Shown in pieces: positions 47,470 to 54,222 of a stretch of DNA of 64,000 nucleotides. The notes under the pieces were generated by a model, which was not told where the DNA came from, did not search any database, and worked only from the letters and a program-made list of their open reading frames with translations. Source of the DNA: Anaerosolibacter sp. (GTDB taxonomy: Bacteria; Bacillota; Clostridia; Peptostreptococcales; Thermotaleaceae). The stretch is taken from NCBI RefSeq assembly GCF_029240175.1, contig NZ_JARBTM010000006.1, positions 62,001-126,000 of the forward strand. Direction: 5' to 3'. Both the position numbers and the translations under genes were made by a program. Position 1 is the first letter of the stretch, and every line of letters starts with the position of its first letter.

Positions 47470-48249
47470 TTACAGCATCGCTTCTATCAGCTGCTTTGTA
47501 TAATCATTCCTTGGATTTAGCATAATCTGTTCCTTGTCTCCCATTTCAACAATTCTTCCCTTGAACATGACGGCAATACGGTCGCAAATATGCTGGACCA
47601 CTTTTAAATCATGGGAAATAAATAGATAGGTCAGTGACAGTTCCTTTTTGAGATCAATCAATAGATTCAATATCTGGCCTTGTACAGAAACATCCAATGC
47701 AGATACAGGTTCATCACAAATGACCAATTTAGGTCTCGAAGCAATGGCACGGGCAATCCCTATCCGTTGTTTCTGCCCACCACTCAGCTGATATGTATAC
47801 TTATTTTTATCTTTCCCAGTCAATCCAACCATATTCAAAAGCCTATCAACTTCAGCCTCTATCTCTGTTGCTGGCACAATACTATAAATCCGTAGGGGGG
47901 CAGCAATAATCTCACCAATCGTTACTTTGGGATCAAGGGTTTCTTGGGCCTGCTGAAAAATAATTTGAATATCTTTTCTCTTTCTTCGCATATTCTTTTC
48001 ATCCATCTGTAACACATTTTCACCTTGGAAGAATACACGCCCAGTATCTGCGTGAATCAACCTGAGAATCAGTTCTCCCGTTGTGGTTTTTCCGCTCCCG
48101 CTTTCACCAATAAGACCTAAGGTCTCTCCATGATCAATGTCAAAAGAGATATTATCAACAGCTTTTATCAGTATTTTGGGAGAAATTAAATTTTTTTTCA
48201 CTACATAGTGTTTCGAGAGATTTTCAACCTGTAACAACGCTTCCCTCAT
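47470..48249 (-). CDS. Oligopeptide/dipeptide-type ABC transporter ATPase (OppF/DppF-like)
   Basis: Cytoplasmic ATPase of a peptide/nickel-family importer. The 259 residues hold Walker A GESGSGKTT (near 53), the signature LSGGQKQRIGIARAI and Walker B LVICDEPVSALDVS. It lacks the ~60-residue C-terminal cysteine-rich oligo_HPY extension that its partner has, ending at DYTKQLIEAML, so it is the short form. It is the fourth gene of the operon, 14 bases after the OppD-like gene. Confidence 0.93.
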   Translation of the reverse strand: MREALLQVENLSKHYVVKKNLISPKILIKAVDNISFDIDHGETLGLIGESGSGKTTTGELILRLIHADTGRVFFQGENVLQMDEKNMRRKRKDIQIIFQQAQETLDPKVTIGEIIAAPLRIYSIVPATEIEAEVDRLLNMVGLTGKDKNKYTYQLSGGQKQRIGIARAIASRPKLVICDEPVSALDVSVQGQILNLLIDLKKELSLTYLFISHDLKVVQHICDRIAVMFKGRIVEMGDKEQIMLNPRNDYTKQLIEAML

Positions 48250-48263
48250 AGCTCACCCTCCCC

Positions 48264-49232
48264 CTAATTTGATACTGCCTGTATGCATCTAACTCTTCTA
48301 TTGTTTTCTCCGTTCACCATCGGCGGTATACCTTGGTTACATTGATCCATTCTTTGTTTGCATCTTTCAAAGAAAGGACATTCATTCTTTAATTCATAGG
48401 GATTCGGCGGTACGCCTTCAAGGCTGTATAGGGATGATTCTCCTACATTCAATGAATTCACACATTTCAACAACTCCACCGTGTATGGGTGCATGGGCTT
48501 TTCCAATACATCCCGCACCTCTCCTTCTTCCATAACAAGGCCGCCATACATAATCACGACCCTATGGCACAGGAACCTAGCCACATCAAAGTCATGGGTA
48601 ATAATCATGATAGCTGTCCCATATTTTTCATTTATACCCCTAAAAATATTCAATACCTTTCGCCGTAAAGAAGCATCTATGGCACTGGTTGGTTCATCTG
48701 CAATCATCAACTTAGGCTTGCAGATAACAGCCATGGCAATATTTAATCTCTGACATTGACCTCCACTCAACTGAAAGGGGTACATATCATAGATCAGTTT
48801 GGCATCGGCTAGTCCGATTTCCTCCATAGTTTTTAATATTTCTTCCTTTTCAACCTTTATGCCATGTACCTTGACAGCTTCTTGTATTTGCTTACCTACT
48901 TTTCGATAGGGATTTAGGGATGCCACAGGATCTTGAAATATGTAGGCGATCTCCTTTCCTCGAATACTTTCTAAAGCACGTTCTGGCAGCTTCAATAGGT
49001 CCTGATCTTTGAACCGTATCTCTCCTCCATCTATTCTTCCATCTCCATCAGAAACCAATCCCAAAATGGCCGTTGAACTAACCGTTTTACCACTTCCTGA
49101 CTCCCCTAAAATTCCTACAATTTCTCCCTGATAAACATCTAAATCAATCTCCCGAACCACTTGTATCCGATTTTGACCATAGGCAAAAGAGATTTTAAGA
49201 TCTTTTATCTGCAATAACTTTCTATCCTCCAT
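48264..49232 (-). CDS. Oligopeptide/dipeptide-type ABC transporter ATPase (OppD/DppD-like)
   Basis: Partner ATPase of the same importer. The 322 residues contain Walker A GESGSGKTVSS, the signature LSGGQCQRLNIAMAV, Walker B LMIADEPTSAIDAS, and a full C-terminal oligo_HPY tail with cysteines in CPFFERCKQRMDQC and a later cysteine in VRCIQ. In Dpp/Opp proteins such cysteines can hold an Fe-S cluster (family knowledge). GTGAGG precedes ATG, 16 bases after the fused permease gene. Confidence 0.94.
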   Translation of the reverse strand: MEDRKLLQIKDLKISFAYGQNRIQVVREIDLDVYQGEIVGILGESGSGKTVSSTAILGLVSDGDGRIDGGEIRFKDQDLLKLPERALESIRGKEIAYIFQDPVASLNPYRKVGKQIQEAVKVHGIKVEKEEILKTMEEIGLADAKLIYDMYPFQLSGGQCQRLNIAMAVICKPKLMIADEPTSAIDASLRRKVLNIFRGINEKYGTAIMIITHDFDVARFLCHRVVIMYGGLVMEEGEVRDVLEKPMHPYTVELLKCVNSLNVGESSLYSLEGVPPNPYELKNECPFFERCKQRMDQCNQGIPPMVNGENNRRVRCIQAVSN

Positions 49233-49248
49233 AGCGCCTCACATCCAA

Positions 49249-51552
49249 TTAATGATTATTGTTTTTTAAGGTTTCAAGTAAACTTTTACCCAATTCATCA
49301 AGGGTTAGTAATTTGTTTGTATTCCCCTTATCTTCTTGCATACTTAAAATAATGGTAGGTGTATTGACCTCATAGTAGAGAATCTTATCCATATAATTTT
49401 CCCCCTTGGCACCAGGGTACATATCTACCTTATACTCATTTTGAACAACATTCCTTTTTGCTATTGCATTTTCCAATTGATGGTTAAAACTAAAGGAAAA
49501 ATATCTGGTGATCGGTGCCTGCCTGCTGTTATAGTATAGATGACCCTTATCTGTATAAATCCTCGTTAAGTCTACATATAATTCACTTTTTTCCGGATTA
49601 TACAAAGGCTGCTTTCCATAGGCTGTTTTACCGTTGTAAGAATCACTTACCGTTCCATCCCAGAATACGAAAATAATCGTTCTACGCTTCTCCTGATCCA
49701 TCTGAATCAATTTCCTTGCAAGCTCTAAGCCCCACAGAATCCTTTTCTCTCCAATTTCTTTCTGATTCCTGTCGTAGTTATAGCCTATGCCAATAATGAT
49801 GGCTTCCTCTCCAACCATTTTATCATTGCCGGGGATCATACCTGCAACATTTCTTCCAATATTTTCTAACTCTCTGCTCTTTAGCACGATCTGTACGTCA
49901 CTGCCCGATAACTGCTTCAAACGATTTCCCGCCTCAGGTGTAACCCACATGACGACACCGTTATATACCTCATTTCCCATGGGATACGGCAGTGCTTTTT
50001 TTGCTGGTAGAATGCAAAAGATCCCTTTTACTTCTGATTCTGTCATGATTTTCTTTACTAGGTACTGAAATCCTTTCTCTGAGTAAATATTGCTGTCCAA
50101 TAACACAAACTGATCCTTCATATTTGTAAAATCTATGGTAGAAAGCAGTTCCATTTCCGATGCATCATAAAGCTCACCATTTAGCTCCTTATTTCCAAAG
50201 CTTTGGAATACAAAGTCTGTTTGGTGGACAAATTCCTCTATTTCCATGGCTGTAGATACCACCTTTAACCTGGCTTCCGTAGGAACATAGATCTTCTCCG
50301 TTGTATATTCTGAGATATATCCCTTTTCAGACATTGGTTTGAGTCCAATTTTCATAAGGGAATCACCAATATTCTGTGCCATTTTTTTACTCTGCTCAGT
50401 ACCAATCAAAACTTCATCGAAAGCCTCATGGACGAATATCTCCTTAGCATCCGTATATTGAAAAACTGCTGAATACTGATTCCATGCACCTATACCCATA
50501 ACCGCTAGGAAAGCACAAGATACACTTATTACTATGTAAATCTTCTGTTTTCTAGCCACAGTCGACTTTTGCCTAACAAACAGTTTTAACTTCCCAAAAC
50601 TCAACATACCCCTTAAGCCTGTTAAATACACTGAATTTTTTTCCTGAAATTCCTTTCTCAATCCCTCACCAATGAGGTTAAAGCCTAAAATACTGATAAA
50701 GAAAGCGATCCCAGGAAAAATTACTGTCCAAGGGGCTAACCGTATGTAATTTCTTGCACTGCCCAACATGCTTGCCCATTCAGGTTCATAGCTAATATTT
50801 AGAAATGTAGTCTGCCCGCCCTCTGTATCTGCTATGAATCCCATGTTTCCAACAAATACACCGAAAATACCGAACTGCATCATCATCGTTAGAACCCTTG
50901 CGATTTCCATAAAAAACAAAATTACCAATTCTGCAGTCAAATGAGGGATGACATTTTCAAGGGTAATTTGTAACCTGCTCTTTCCTATGGCAATTTCTCC
51001 TTTGATAAAGGGCTTCCCTAAAGTCTCTTGGACTCTTTCCATAATCATTTTTCCAAGCTTGGCCCAATCAACAATCGTTAAGACCAGCACAAAAGCAACG
51101 ATTGATTGTTCCCTATACAAATTGGTAAAAAAATTCATCTTCAAAATGATGACCCCAATGAGTAATGCCGGAAGAGCCGTAAAGATAATACTGCATTGTT
51201 CAATAATCATTTTTGAGGTATAACTTCCAAATCCTGCCGCTACGCCTAAGGGCAATGCCAACAGAAATCTACCTATAACTACAAATATGCTTATGGTCAA
51301 CGTAAGCTTTGTACCATAGATAATAAAGGCTAAAATATCTCTTCCCATCTCGTCGGTACCTAATGGGTTCTCTTCAGATGGTGGAAAAGGCGGTGCTTGA
51401 AGGTTCAACTCACCATTTTCATAATTCCATGTTCGCATTGTTTGTGCAGTATACGGATTTATATCTGTTAGCAGGCTAGGGAAGTTTATAGTAAATATTA
51501 AAACAACCAAGATACAACTCCCTATGATAAGGGATAGATTTTTCTTTTTCAT
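49249..51552 (-). CDS. DppC-type permease fused to a degenerate M28-like extracellular domain
   Basis: Second permease of the peptide importer with an unusual C-terminal extension. Residues 1 to about 310 are a complete DppC-type permease: an N-terminal helix, ENPLGTDEMGRDILAFIIYG, and an EAA loop around GEIAIGKSRLQITLENVIPHL. A further helix (about 334-355, IYIVISVSCAFLAVMGIGAW) leads to an outside domain of ~410 residues. Parts of it align by eye with the M28 peptidase in the neighbouring protein: NVAGMIPGNDKMVGEEAIII with NILGKIQGKKQDAGYVIVSA, and RRTIIFVFWDG with DKTILFVGWNN. The zinc ligands are missing (GIGYNYD in place of AHIDHV, WDGTV in place of WNNEE), so it is probably a non-catalytic, binding or docking domain. 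It overlaps the upstream gene by 4 bases (ATGA). Confidence 0.85.
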   Translation of the reverse strand: MKKKNLSLIIGSCILVVLIFTINFPSLLTDINPYTAQTMRTWNYENGELNLQAPPFPPSEENPLGTDEMGRDILAFIIYGTKLTLTISIFVVIGRFLLALPLGVAAGFGSYTSKMIIEQCSIIFTALPALLIGVIILKMNFFTNLYREQSIVAFVLVLTIVDWAKLGKMIMERVQETLGKPFIKGEIAIGKSRLQITLENVIPHLTAELVILFFMEIARVLTMMMQFGIFGVFVGNMGFIADTEGGQTTFLNISYEPEWASMLGSARNYIRLAPWTVIFPGIAFFISILGFNLIGEGLRKEFQEKNSVYLTGLRGMLSFGKLKLFVRQKSTVARKQKIYIVISVSCAFLAVMGIGAWNQYSAVFQYTDAKEIFVHEAFDEVLIGTEQSKKMAQNIGDSLMKIGLKPMSEKGYISEYTTEKIYVPTEARLKVVSTAMEIEEFVHQTDFVFQSFGNKELNGELYDASEMELLSTIDFTNMKDQFVLLDSNIYSEKGFQYLVKKIMTESEVKGIFCILPAKKALPYPMGNEVYNGVVMWVTPEAGNRLKQLSGSDVQIVLKSRELENIGRNVAGMIPGNDKMVGEEAIIIGIGYNYDRNQKEIGEKRILWGLELARKLIQMDQEKRRTIIFVFWDGTVSDSYNGKTAYGKQPLYNPEKSELYVDLTRIYTDKGHLYYNSRQAPITRYFSFSFNHQLENAIAKRNVVQNEYKVDMYPGAKGENYMDKILYYEVNTPTIILSMQEDKGNTNKLLTLDELGKSLLETLKNNNH

Positions 51553-54002
51553 TGTATCCCCTCCCTTTTTAGCGGATTTACCATAAATGCTAACAATGCA
51601 AATCCTGCGTTAAGCACAACGTACATGATCCCTAAAGACAGAGACAACCCTATGAAGGTTGCTTGATCACTTTCCTGATATGCCTTTAAGAGCATATATA
51701 TTACCCCAGGATAATGAAAAAAATATTCTACTACAATCAAGTTTGAGATGATAATGGGTACCACCGAGGATAAGGAATCTATCACTTTCATGGTTACACC
51801 AATCAATAGGTGTAATGTTAATATCTTATTTTTTGAAAGACCTTTGGCTCTTGCAGCTTTAACATATCCTTTTCTCATTTCTTCATGAATAACGATGGTG
51901 GTTATCCTCGCCATATATACTGAAGGAACCACAGATAAACAAATTAGTGGAAGAACGAATTTTCTCGTGATCTCTTTGGTCATTACGGGTACTAAAATAT
52001 TGTACTTATACATAAAAACAACTAGCAATTGAACTCCTATCACAATAAGGACATCTGGGATTGACAAAGCTACCAATGTTCCCATAGTTCTGAGACTGTC
52101 ATTGTTTTGATTTCTATAACCATCCAAAATGCCCTTTATAATCCCTATAATTGTTGAGAAAATCAAGGTAGAAGCAATAAGCACCATGCTCTTGCTAAAA
52201 GAGTTCACTACAATCTTCATAATATCCTGCTGTCCAATGGATTTTCCAAAGCCATTACTAAGCAAGTTTCGAATATAAAGTATACTTTTTTTCACTGTCA
52301 GAGAAATCGATAGGTTGGTATATACACTTCCTTGATCAAGGATTAGATTAAAATTAGTAGGTATATTTGCAATAAACACCAACATAAATACGACAATGGT
52401 CGTTAGAAAAACATAATGATAAATCCTTGTTACAATGCGAAAGGGCATTGAATAGTATATATCCTCTATCTTTAGATTGCCTATCACATAATCAGGTTTT
52501 CCTTTGTTAAAATAATAGATCAGATATATCACTATGCCCAATAGGATCAACCCACTTAAAAAACTCCACTCTTGCGCATTTAAGTAGTCTGGCAGGAAGT
52601 CTCCATAGACTTCACTATTAATATAATCTAGGAGCGTAACTGCTACTTTTGATAAATTTTCTTTGCTAATGTTATCGATATTATCCTCGTAGGTGTGGAT
52701 CTTATGTTTATGTCCTATGTCCTCAAAATTATCTTCAATAAGAATAGCAGGCACACCTTTCTCAATAAAAGGTCCATGATCGCTGGATAAAAAGCTGCTT
52801 TCCTTTGACTTGAAACCTCTGAGGTCTGCTAATTGCTTAAATTTATTTCGCAGCAATTGCCCTTTTGTCCCTGCAGAAGCGAAGTCGATTTCCTGCATTG
52901 TCACTGAGCCTATACAGTCCAGCTGAATGAGCTGGGTCTTTTCAAGGGGATAGATCGGATTATTTGTATAATATCTAGACCCTGCAAGACCACCTTCTTC
53001 GTTATTCCACCCAACAAATAAGATGGTCTTATCCGGTGGTGATTTTTGAGCCTTTATTACCCTGGCCATTTCCATTACCATAGCAGTTCCCGATGCATCA
53101 TCCAATGCACCTGGAAAGTATGGACCATCATCGTATTCTGCACCCACATGATCTATATGGGCGGAAACGATTACATACCCTGCATCTTGTTTTTTTCCCT
53201 GTATTTTTCCAAGGATATTTGCGGTATTTACAGGATGAAAATCGTATTCATAGCCGATTTGAGCCTTATAGTTTTTTGATGCATACCGCTTTAAATTCAC
53301 GAACTCTGGCATTTTTACATAGTGGAGGATGATTCCCGGATCATCAATCCTATGTAAATTCCCTGAACCCTTTATCATTCTTACGGGTTCAACCCTTCGT
53401 CTGGGATCCAATCTCCAGTCACGGTCATTTATAGTAGCTACGATAGCTTTTGCACCACATGCTTTGGCATAATGAATGTCCTCTTCCCGTAAGAGAATAT
53501 CTGCCAAAAGTATCTTATCTCGTATTTCATGATCTGAATAACTCGTAATATACATGGATAGGTACAGCAATTCCCCTTCAATTTTCCCCCGTCCATCAAA
53601 AGAATCCCGATATTCCTGTCTAATACTATATTCCTCTATCCGATTTCCTTTCTCATCAGTGATATAAAAATAAGGCTTTTCGCTATAGGATGCTATCATA
53701 TGTTCAAATTCCTGATAGTAGCTTCCCTTTTCTCCTCCTGGTTCTACGCCTATTTCCTTAAAATAATCCTCAACATATTTCAGTGCCAACTGGTTTCCAG
53801 CTGTACCTGGCAGACGTCCATTGTATTTGGGGGATGCAAGCTCTTCAATATGATTGTATACCCGCTCCACATCAAAGAAGGTTTCATCAAATTGTCGCTG
53901 CCATCCATTCAAAAGAATACTGCCGATGAATACTATCAACAAACACCAGATGATATAAACAGTGCTGCTTCTATTTGGTGTTTTCTCAAATCGTTTTTTC
54001 AT
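51549..54002 (-). CDS. M28 zinc aminopeptidase fused to a DppB-type ABC permease
   Basis: First gene of the importer operon. It encodes about 817 residues: a membrane helix (about 14-34), an outside M28 metallopeptidase (about 45-470) with an inserted PA-like segment (ILLADILLREEDIHYAKACG), a second helix (about 478-500), and a DppB-type permease (about 520-817) with an EAA loop around AARAKGLSKNKILTLHLLIG. All M28 residues are present: His282 and the AHIDHVG context, Asp301 in GALDDASG, Glu335-Glu336 in NNEEGG, Asp362 in QLDCIG and His409 in SSDHGPF. It should cut N-terminal residues from peptides right at the transporter mouth. The frame extends 31 codons upstream, but ATG at 54002 has GGGTGGGA ahead and directly precedes the first helix. 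The fusion is not one I recognise as described. Confidence 0.9.
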   Translation of the reverse strand: MKKRFEKTPNRSSTVYIIWCLLIVFIGSILLNGWQRQFDETFFDVERVYNHIEELASPKYNGRLPGTAGNQLALKYVEDYFKEIGVEPGGEKGSYYQEFEHMIASYSEKPYFYITDEKGNRIEEYSIRQEYRDSFDGRGKIEGELLYLSMYITSYSDHEIRDKILLADILLREEDIHYAKACGAKAIVATINDRDWRLDPRRRVEPVRMIKGSGNLHRIDDPGIILHYVKMPEFVNLKRYASKNYKAQIGYEYDFHPVNTANILGKIQGKKQDAGYVIVSAHIDHVGAEYDDGPYFPGALDDASGTAMVMEMARVIKAQKSPPDKTILFVGWNNEEGGLAGSRYYTNNPIYPLEKTQLIQLDCIGSVTMQEIDFASAGTKGQLLRNKFKQLADLRGFKSKESSFLSSDHGPFIEKGVPAILIEDNFEDIGHKHKIHTYEDNIDNISKENLSKVAVTLLDYINSEVYGDFLPDYLNAQEWSFLSGLILLGIVIYLIYYFNKGKPDYVIGNLKIEDIYYSMPFRIVTRIYHYVFLTTIVVFMLVFIANIPTNFNLILDQGSVYTNLSISLTVKKSILYIRNLLSNGFGKSIGQQDIMKIVVNSFSKSMVLIASTLIFSTIIGIIKGILDGYRNQNNDSLRTMGTLVALSIPDVLIVIGVQLLVVFMYKYNILVPVMTKEITRKFVLPLICLSVVPSVYMARITTIVIHEEMRKGYVKAARAKGLSKNKILTLHLLIGVTMKVIDSLSSVVPIIISNLIVVEYFFHYPGVIYMLLKAYQESDQATFIGLSLSLGIMYVVLNAGFALLAFMVNPLKREGIQ

Positions 54003-54194
54003 GAAGTCCCACCCTTTTTCTTTATAAATCAGAAAATTCCATTGGTCATCATAATGATCATGTCGTTTTCCAGTCACCCAGTTTCTTTTAAACATAAGAT
54101 TACTATTCTACTTCTTCATACTATTACAAATTTTATGAAATATCAAAGCAATATGCAATTTGTTACTTTTTTGTAAAATCTATTAAGACCAATA

Positions 54195-54222
54195 AAAAAA
54201 CGGATGTTTCCATCCGTTTTTT
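54195..54222 (-). terminator. Rubrerythrin terminator
   Basis: AAAAAACGGATG pairs with CATCCGTTTTTT across the loop TTTC, just after the rubrerythrin stop. It separates that gene from the peptide importer operon downstream. Confidence 0.92.

Follow-up and report, generated by a model that had tools for sequence, protein, structure and literature searches.

An ABC permease pair carrying M28-fold domains in Anaerosolibacter and related Clostridia, with a possible role in peptide capture and trimming at the pore

The 64,000-nucleotide stretch of Anaerosolibacter sp. DNA analyzed here (the window) contains a gene that appears to place a zinc peptidase and a peptide permease in a single protein. 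A sequence-only reading of the locus had proposed that such a transporter trims peptides at its own entrance and imports the products. The locus raises the question of whether a peptidase domain cuts peptides for the pore to which it is joined, or whether it has some other role there. We investigated the gene and its operon, the state of the active site in relatives, and whether a binding protein is encoded nearby.

The fused permeases and their operon

The M28-DppB fusion gene was placed at 51549..54002 on the minus strand (817 aa), using Pfam, the ribosome-binding site, and the start of the nearest relative; all window features described below lie on the same strand. The longest open frame spans 51549..54095 (848 aa). 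The start at 54002 was preferred, as it is preceded by a Shine-Dalgarno-like AAGGGTGG and coincides with the first residue of the open reading frame in the nearest relative (G001), which bears out the 817-aa extent given to the protein initially. The start at 54095 had no clear ribosome-binding site and was absent from the nearest relative. In G001, the single TAA within the match lies among the six codons preceding the G001 start.

Pfam identified both families within this single chain, Peptidase_M28 with an E-value of 5.6e-39 and BPD_transp_1 with an E-value of 1.2e-15, which agrees with the proposed joining of an M28 peptidase to a DppB permease. Hydropathy indicated an N-terminal membrane anchor with its N terminus inside (aa 13-31; 53910..53966) and a second helix returning to the cytoplasm (aa 480-498; 52509..52565). 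Between them lies the Peptidase_M28 catalytic domain (PF04389; aa 262-460; 52623..53219), hereafter the DppB head, which was assigned through Pfam, its residues, and comparison with solved zinc aminopeptidases. The BPD_transp_1 core of the DppB-type permease follows (aa 624-811; 51570..52133; Pfam and phmmer) and contains the EAA loop AARAKGLSKNK. The head scored 134.3 bits against a curated Peptidase_M28 cut-off of 21.3, and all six active-site residues were present (H282, D301, E335, E336, D362, and H409 in the 817-aa numbering), so the five metal ligands and the catalytic Glu that had been claimed were all found. The head motifs pair in alignment with those of the solved aminopeptidase 2ek8. 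The best solved relatives of the chain were YwaD (E 5.6e-17) and, by phmmer, OppB (1.5e-13) and DppB (2e-13).

The next gene, with a start that overlaps the M28-DppB stop by 4 nt, encodes a 767-aa DppC-type permease with a C-terminal M28-like domain (49249..51552). The permease part (approximately aa 1-315; 50608..51552) was recognized through NCBIfam Opp2C with an E-value of 2.6e-35, which falls under the family cut-off; Pfam gave no match above its cut-off for this part, and the assignment was also based on its similarity to fused homologues of DppC that Pfam recognizes. A helix (aa 338-356) precedes the M28-like domain, which lacks metal ligands and is predicted to lie outside (aa 357-767; 49252..50484). 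No Pfam family scored above cut-off for this DppC head of ~410 residues. Its relationship to the M28 fold came from hhalign, in which a profile of the DppC head (10 sequences) matched the M28 part of DppB (4 sequences) with a probability of 96.3 and an E-value of 1.8e-9 over 357 columns, spanning nearly the full length. Among fused relatives, the DppC of locus L039 reached 25.3 bits for Peptidase_M28 (cut-off 21.3), and in L032, L029, and L034 the match was under the cut-off or absent. A search of the DppC-head profile against solved structures matched none (best E 0.041). The window's DppC head reads G-I-T-V-T-K at the six active-site places, and zinc binding of the M28 kind is consequently not expected of it. 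Judged by these residues, it is a catalytically dead M28 homologue. Within the head (window 49249-50517), a Q-A/S-P-x-T/S-R motif was conserved in ten aligned sequences of the paired layout described below, with Q, P, and R invariant, making it a candidate site for binding or contact.

Two ATPase genes complete the cassette. The DppD-type ATPase (48264..49232) contained Pfam ABC_tran and a complete oligo_HPY, whereas the 259-aa DppF-type ATPase (47470..48249; ABC_tran) matched oligo_HPY over only 25 of 65 positions, under the cut-off. A terminator-like hairpin (54195..54222) lies between the upstream rubrerythrin gene and the cassette; it is a consensus match only, and six such sites were found in the region vs. 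4.5 expected. PADLOC returned zero anti-phage defence matches for the M28-DppB or the DppC-M28 chain. The flanking genes were also inspected for neighbors that could name a substrate, and among the 24 selected, no family recurred beyond closely related loci. In two loci (L133:3211-4698 and L157:3217-4608), a gene for a protein with S-layer homology and Peptidase_M15_4 (D-Ala-D-Ala carboxypeptidase) domains lies directly upstream of the cassette, which hints at cell-wall peptides as a substrate in those two genomes.

Topology was derived from hydropathy with the cytoplasmic EAA loops as the anchor. Five helices separate the head from its own EAA loop in DppB and three do so in DppC, and these counts place both heads outside. 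The number of helices after the DppB EAA loop varied with the threshold, which does not affect the count of five. Both M28 heads are therefore predicted to be extracellular, and the earlier placement of the peptidase between two helices and facing outward is upheld by this prediction. AlphaFold2, run with four sequences for each chain, gave mean pLDDT values of 35.0 (DppB) and 36.8 (DppC), and these models were not used.

Distribution, descent, and loss of the active site

Profiles built from the DppC and DppB chains were used to find relatives, whose loci were then read. The genome searches scored at most the best two or three first-look candidates per genome, so the distribution counts given here are lower bounds. 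In the paired layout (T1), M28-DppB is followed by DppC-M28 and usually by the ATPases. T1 occurred in at least 24 of 297 genomes in the order sample and at least four of 391 in the class sample; in the phylum sample (398 genomes), it was seen in the window's own genome alone among the candidates scored. These samples overlap, and T1 was read in 26 genomes altogether. DppC-M28 directly followed M28-DppB in all 26 T1 loci, with ATPase genes next in 24; the exceptions were L028, where the ATPases are not next, and L030, which ends at a contig end. The M28-DppB of L132 has lost its N terminus to a contig end. A further observation from these loci is that both cassette ATPases are fused into a single 614-aa chain at L129:10895-12739. 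In the second layout (T2), DppC-M28 is accompanied by a plain DppB, or no DppB is in view; T2 was found in at least 11 of 297 genomes (order sample; this count takes in shorter forms of ~640 aa) and at least nine of 391 (class sample; this count takes in G643, in which the DppC part is broken over two frames). In G374 (L150:8416-10744), DppC and the M28-like part are two separate frames, adjacent and overlapping. A DppC-M28 gene with a dead head has, at L148:1-3724, a neighbor that encodes a free M28 peptidase with a complete active site.

The window's fusion belongs to a clade of four sequences (57-74% identity to the window). Its near relatives, from the same genus and family, are those of Anaerosolibacter carboniphilus at 74% and of Geosporobacter subterraneus and Geosporobacter ferrireducens at 58%. 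The fused chains come from 26 genomes that include three named isolates, and that of G. ferrireducens is a complete chromosome. An error that joined two genes had been named initially as what could undo the fusion. Since the same architecture recurs in 26 loci of 26 genomes, each directly followed by the same kind of partner gene, chance and artefacts of assembly or sequencing can for practical purposes be discounted as its source. A search for the architecture in other genomes, suggested by the sequence-only reading, was in this way productive.

Some other M28 proteins were considered and set aside. Lokiarchaeal loci L050-L053 contained M28 proteins that are not fused to permeases. Free M28 proteins with approximately six C-terminal helices (L031:7621-9735, L036:6426-8597, L035:9221-11341, L037:5362-7485, and L183:742-2829) are ~700 aa long, with an N-terminal M28-like domain and an incomplete site. 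They were ruled out as permease fusions, as their helical part matched the DppB and DppC profiles with probabilities of 0.1 and 0.3%, compared with 97.9% for DppB vs. DppC. Two of them, in L031 and L036, adjoin standard dpp operons that include a binding protein.

A complete active site was found in four of 26 DppB heads (the window, L025, L026, and L027). All four belong to the window's family, and the six residues are invariant among them. None of the 51 DppC heads with readable columns had a complete site; one further DppC head (L030) is cut. The dead DppB heads read differently from one another at the six places (NNREGH, GDEKEP, HNELEY, HKHENA, and others). Taken in order, the six residues survive in 6, 2, 4, 7, 5, and 2 of the 21 dead rows in the tree alignment, and no row retains more than three of them. 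By comparison, 18 of 23 free M28 rows had a complete site, and the other five were the M28 proteins with C-terminal helices. The family evidently does not depend on cleavage, as 22 of 26 DppB heads lack a complete site.

The dead DppB heads are nevertheless kept as open frames. Pairwise dN/dS values were 0.12 (L028/L120), 0.16 (L125/L126), 0.18 (L127/L128), 0.26 (L130/L131), 0.05 (L135/L139), 0.32 (L137/L138), and 0.13 (L029/L030), and these are rough because dS exceeded 1 in six of the seven pairs; the lone pair with low dS, L137/L138, had the highest value. A further pair, L141/L142, gave no value. Heads diverged faster than permeases in eight of ten DppB pairs and in all 11 DppC pairs.

Trees were used to examine the descent of the heads. 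A quick M28-domain tree (48 rows) joined the active clade to L028/L120, a dead pair (98), within a set of dead heads, whereas a careful tree (34 rows, with nine of the 23 free M28 rows included) placed the active clade beside all the dead ones (87/88, unstarred). The permease tree left the active clade in an open fork. The survival pattern of the six residues in dead rows is suggestive, though not proof, of several losses of catalysis. T1 formed one well-supported group, both in the DppC permease tree (96, starred) and in the joined DppB and DppC tree (100/100). In the DppC permease tree, 50 fused rows were split from 28 plain rows by one branch with weak support (76), which is compatible with, and weakly supports, a common origin of all DppC-M28 fusions. 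A simple reading would be that DppC gained an M28-like domain first, a step with weak support, and that DppB did so later, once. These trees cover the rows that remained after removal of the cut DppB head L132, the loose pieces L143_7255 and L150_9413, the fragment L185, L163 (the same gene as L158), L002, and L050-L053 from the M28 trees; two rows with fewer than 230 permease residues from the DppC trees, and L029 from the DppC permease tree; and L029 and L030 from the joined tree.

Binding protein and possible roles of the heads

The presence of an SBP_bac_5 binding protein near the fused genes was also investigated. None was found in any of the 52 stretches holding a fused gene, 11 of which are shorter than 10 kb. 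The first profile used contained some of its own positive controls, and the test was repeated with a profile from the window genome's two SBP_bac_5 proteins, with the same outcome. This profile recovered five of five SBP_bac_5 proteins in L031 and L036, both stretches with plain permeases, and over the 52 fused-gene stretches it found none, even at E-values up to 10. Away from the fused genes, at least two SBP_bac_5 proteins are encoded in every one of the 26 T1 genomes. In the window genome, one of the two is beside a plain dppBCDF set; the other stands alone (G000:C24:90659-91765; L188:7396-9021), with a quinolinate phosphoribosyltransferase gene adjoining it and no permease gene nearby. At L157:11230-12252, a protein of the NMT1_3 type, a periplasmic binding kind from another family than SBP_bac_5, is encoded 218 bases past the T1 cassette on the same strand.

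From these observations, we propose that the cassette encodes a Dpp/Opp-type peptide importer in which extracellular M28-fold heads, built into both permeases, replace the separate binding protein, and in which an active head trims. We regard this reading as evenly poised between right and wrong. The paired heads would hold an oligopeptide at the pore mouth, in place of a soluble binding protein. The DppB head of the window's clade, a zinc exopeptidase by its residues, would trim the held peptide, and the product may then pass through DppB-DppC, with DppD and DppF driving the passage. In most relatives, catalysis would have been lost and capture alone would remain. Three features that did not figure in the sequence-only reading, namely the metal-free DppC head, the operon lacking SBP_bac_5, and the 22 of 26 DppB heads with an incomplete site, suggest that a receptor-like role is more general than a peptidase role. 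The family's general role is thus probably non-catalytic, with the heads capturing peptides as a binding protein otherwise would. Peptidase activity is likely in the window's own clade, where the site is complete in four of four sequences. The cut-and-import machine of the sequence-only reading is consequently plausible for that clade, given its complete M28 site and predicted outward orientation; cleavage as a rule did not hold, since it would require the site that most DppB heads lack.

The transporter could instead still use a lipoprotein binding protein encoded elsewhere, with the M28 heads feeding it by cutting nearby or acting as accessories. Such a protein may act in trans, as the T1 genomes carry SBP_bac_5 proteins elsewhere and one of the window genome's two has no permease of its own; DppBCDF of Pseudomonas aeruginosa is reported to work with five separate DppA proteins. 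The consistent absence of SBP_bac_5 from the fused-gene stretches speaks against this, and heads carried on both subunits and retained though dead call for another reason, so that we consider this explanation unlikely while still giving it some weight. A simpler role for the fusion would be that of a mere tether, by which the head supplies amino acids or peptides near the membrane generally and hands nothing over to its own pore. The complete-looking M28 site, and the resemblance of the domain to free aminopeptidases such as YwaD, would suit a tether, which nonetheless leaves the dead DppC head and the dead majority of DppB heads unexplained and seems improbable to us.

We also considered the opposite direction of transport, with the system as an exporter whose head matures or screens an exported peptide. 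SapBCDF permeases are among the weak NCBIfam matches, SapBCDF is reported as a putrescine exporter, and an SBP_bac_5 gene is missing beside the cassette. Against export, the permeases score highest with importer families, albeit under the cut-offs, and no peptide precursor was noticed among the neighbors inspected (outside the window, genes of at least 120 aa). An exporter is, in our estimate, very unlikely. Returning to the importer with built-in heads, its extension to a whole class of clostridial ABC importers for peptides, where a pair of permease-fused M28 heads replaced the soluble binding protein, catalysis was usually lost, and one head in the window's clade still cuts at the entrance, is proposed tentatively and with slightly less than even confidence.

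Relation to known systems and implications

The cassette resembles the Dpp/Opp importers (DppBCDF and OppBCDF) in having a pair of Dpp/Opp-type permeases and a pair of ATPases that contain oligo_HPY. It differs from them in the extracellular M28-fold domains predicted on both permeases and in an operon without an SBP_bac_5 gene; furthermore, these permeases score under the curated thresholds of the NCBIfam families for permeases with which they were compared. Bacillus subtilis YwaD, a free M28 aminopeptidase, has the same six active-site residues and is a separate protein, whereas the enzyme here is part of a permease chain. The transferrin receptor is an example of the M28 fold turning from enzyme to receptor, its ectodomain being of that fold and no longer catalytic, and the M28 profile matches it weakly (E ~4e-4); unlike the cassette, it is eukaryotic and is not an ABC transporter subunit. 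M1 peptidases fused to ABC permeases also combine a peptidase and a permease in one chain, and they differ from M28-DppB in peptidase family. Tethered domains are also present in the ABC importers GlnPQ and OpuA, in which binding domains are fused to the permease and such tethered receptors are reported to function. The predicted topology likewise places the heads described here, as candidate receptors, outside and tethered to the permeases, with the difference that GlnPQ and OpuA carry binding-protein folds and the present heads have the M28 peptidase fold, with the active site intact in one of them. Among the open-access papers listed in our searches, none described a fusion of M28 to a permease. 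The parts come from known families; what looks new is the way they are combined, together with the set of dead heads.

Geosporobacter ferrireducens is one host of the active form. It is named, in the Stickland-reaction section of PMC6615313, among species with a PrdR-controlled operon, and from this context we infer that a supply of peptides may lie at the heart of its energy metabolism. If the proposed reading is true, this family would represent a Dpp/Opp-type importer that uses an enzyme fold, rather than a binding-protein fold, as its receptor, and the natural series from active to dead heads would allow one to ask what the fold does once cutting is lost. In the window's clade, recognition, hydrolysis, and import would be one machine, and the system offers a direct test of the coupling of extracellular hydrolysis to uptake within one complex.
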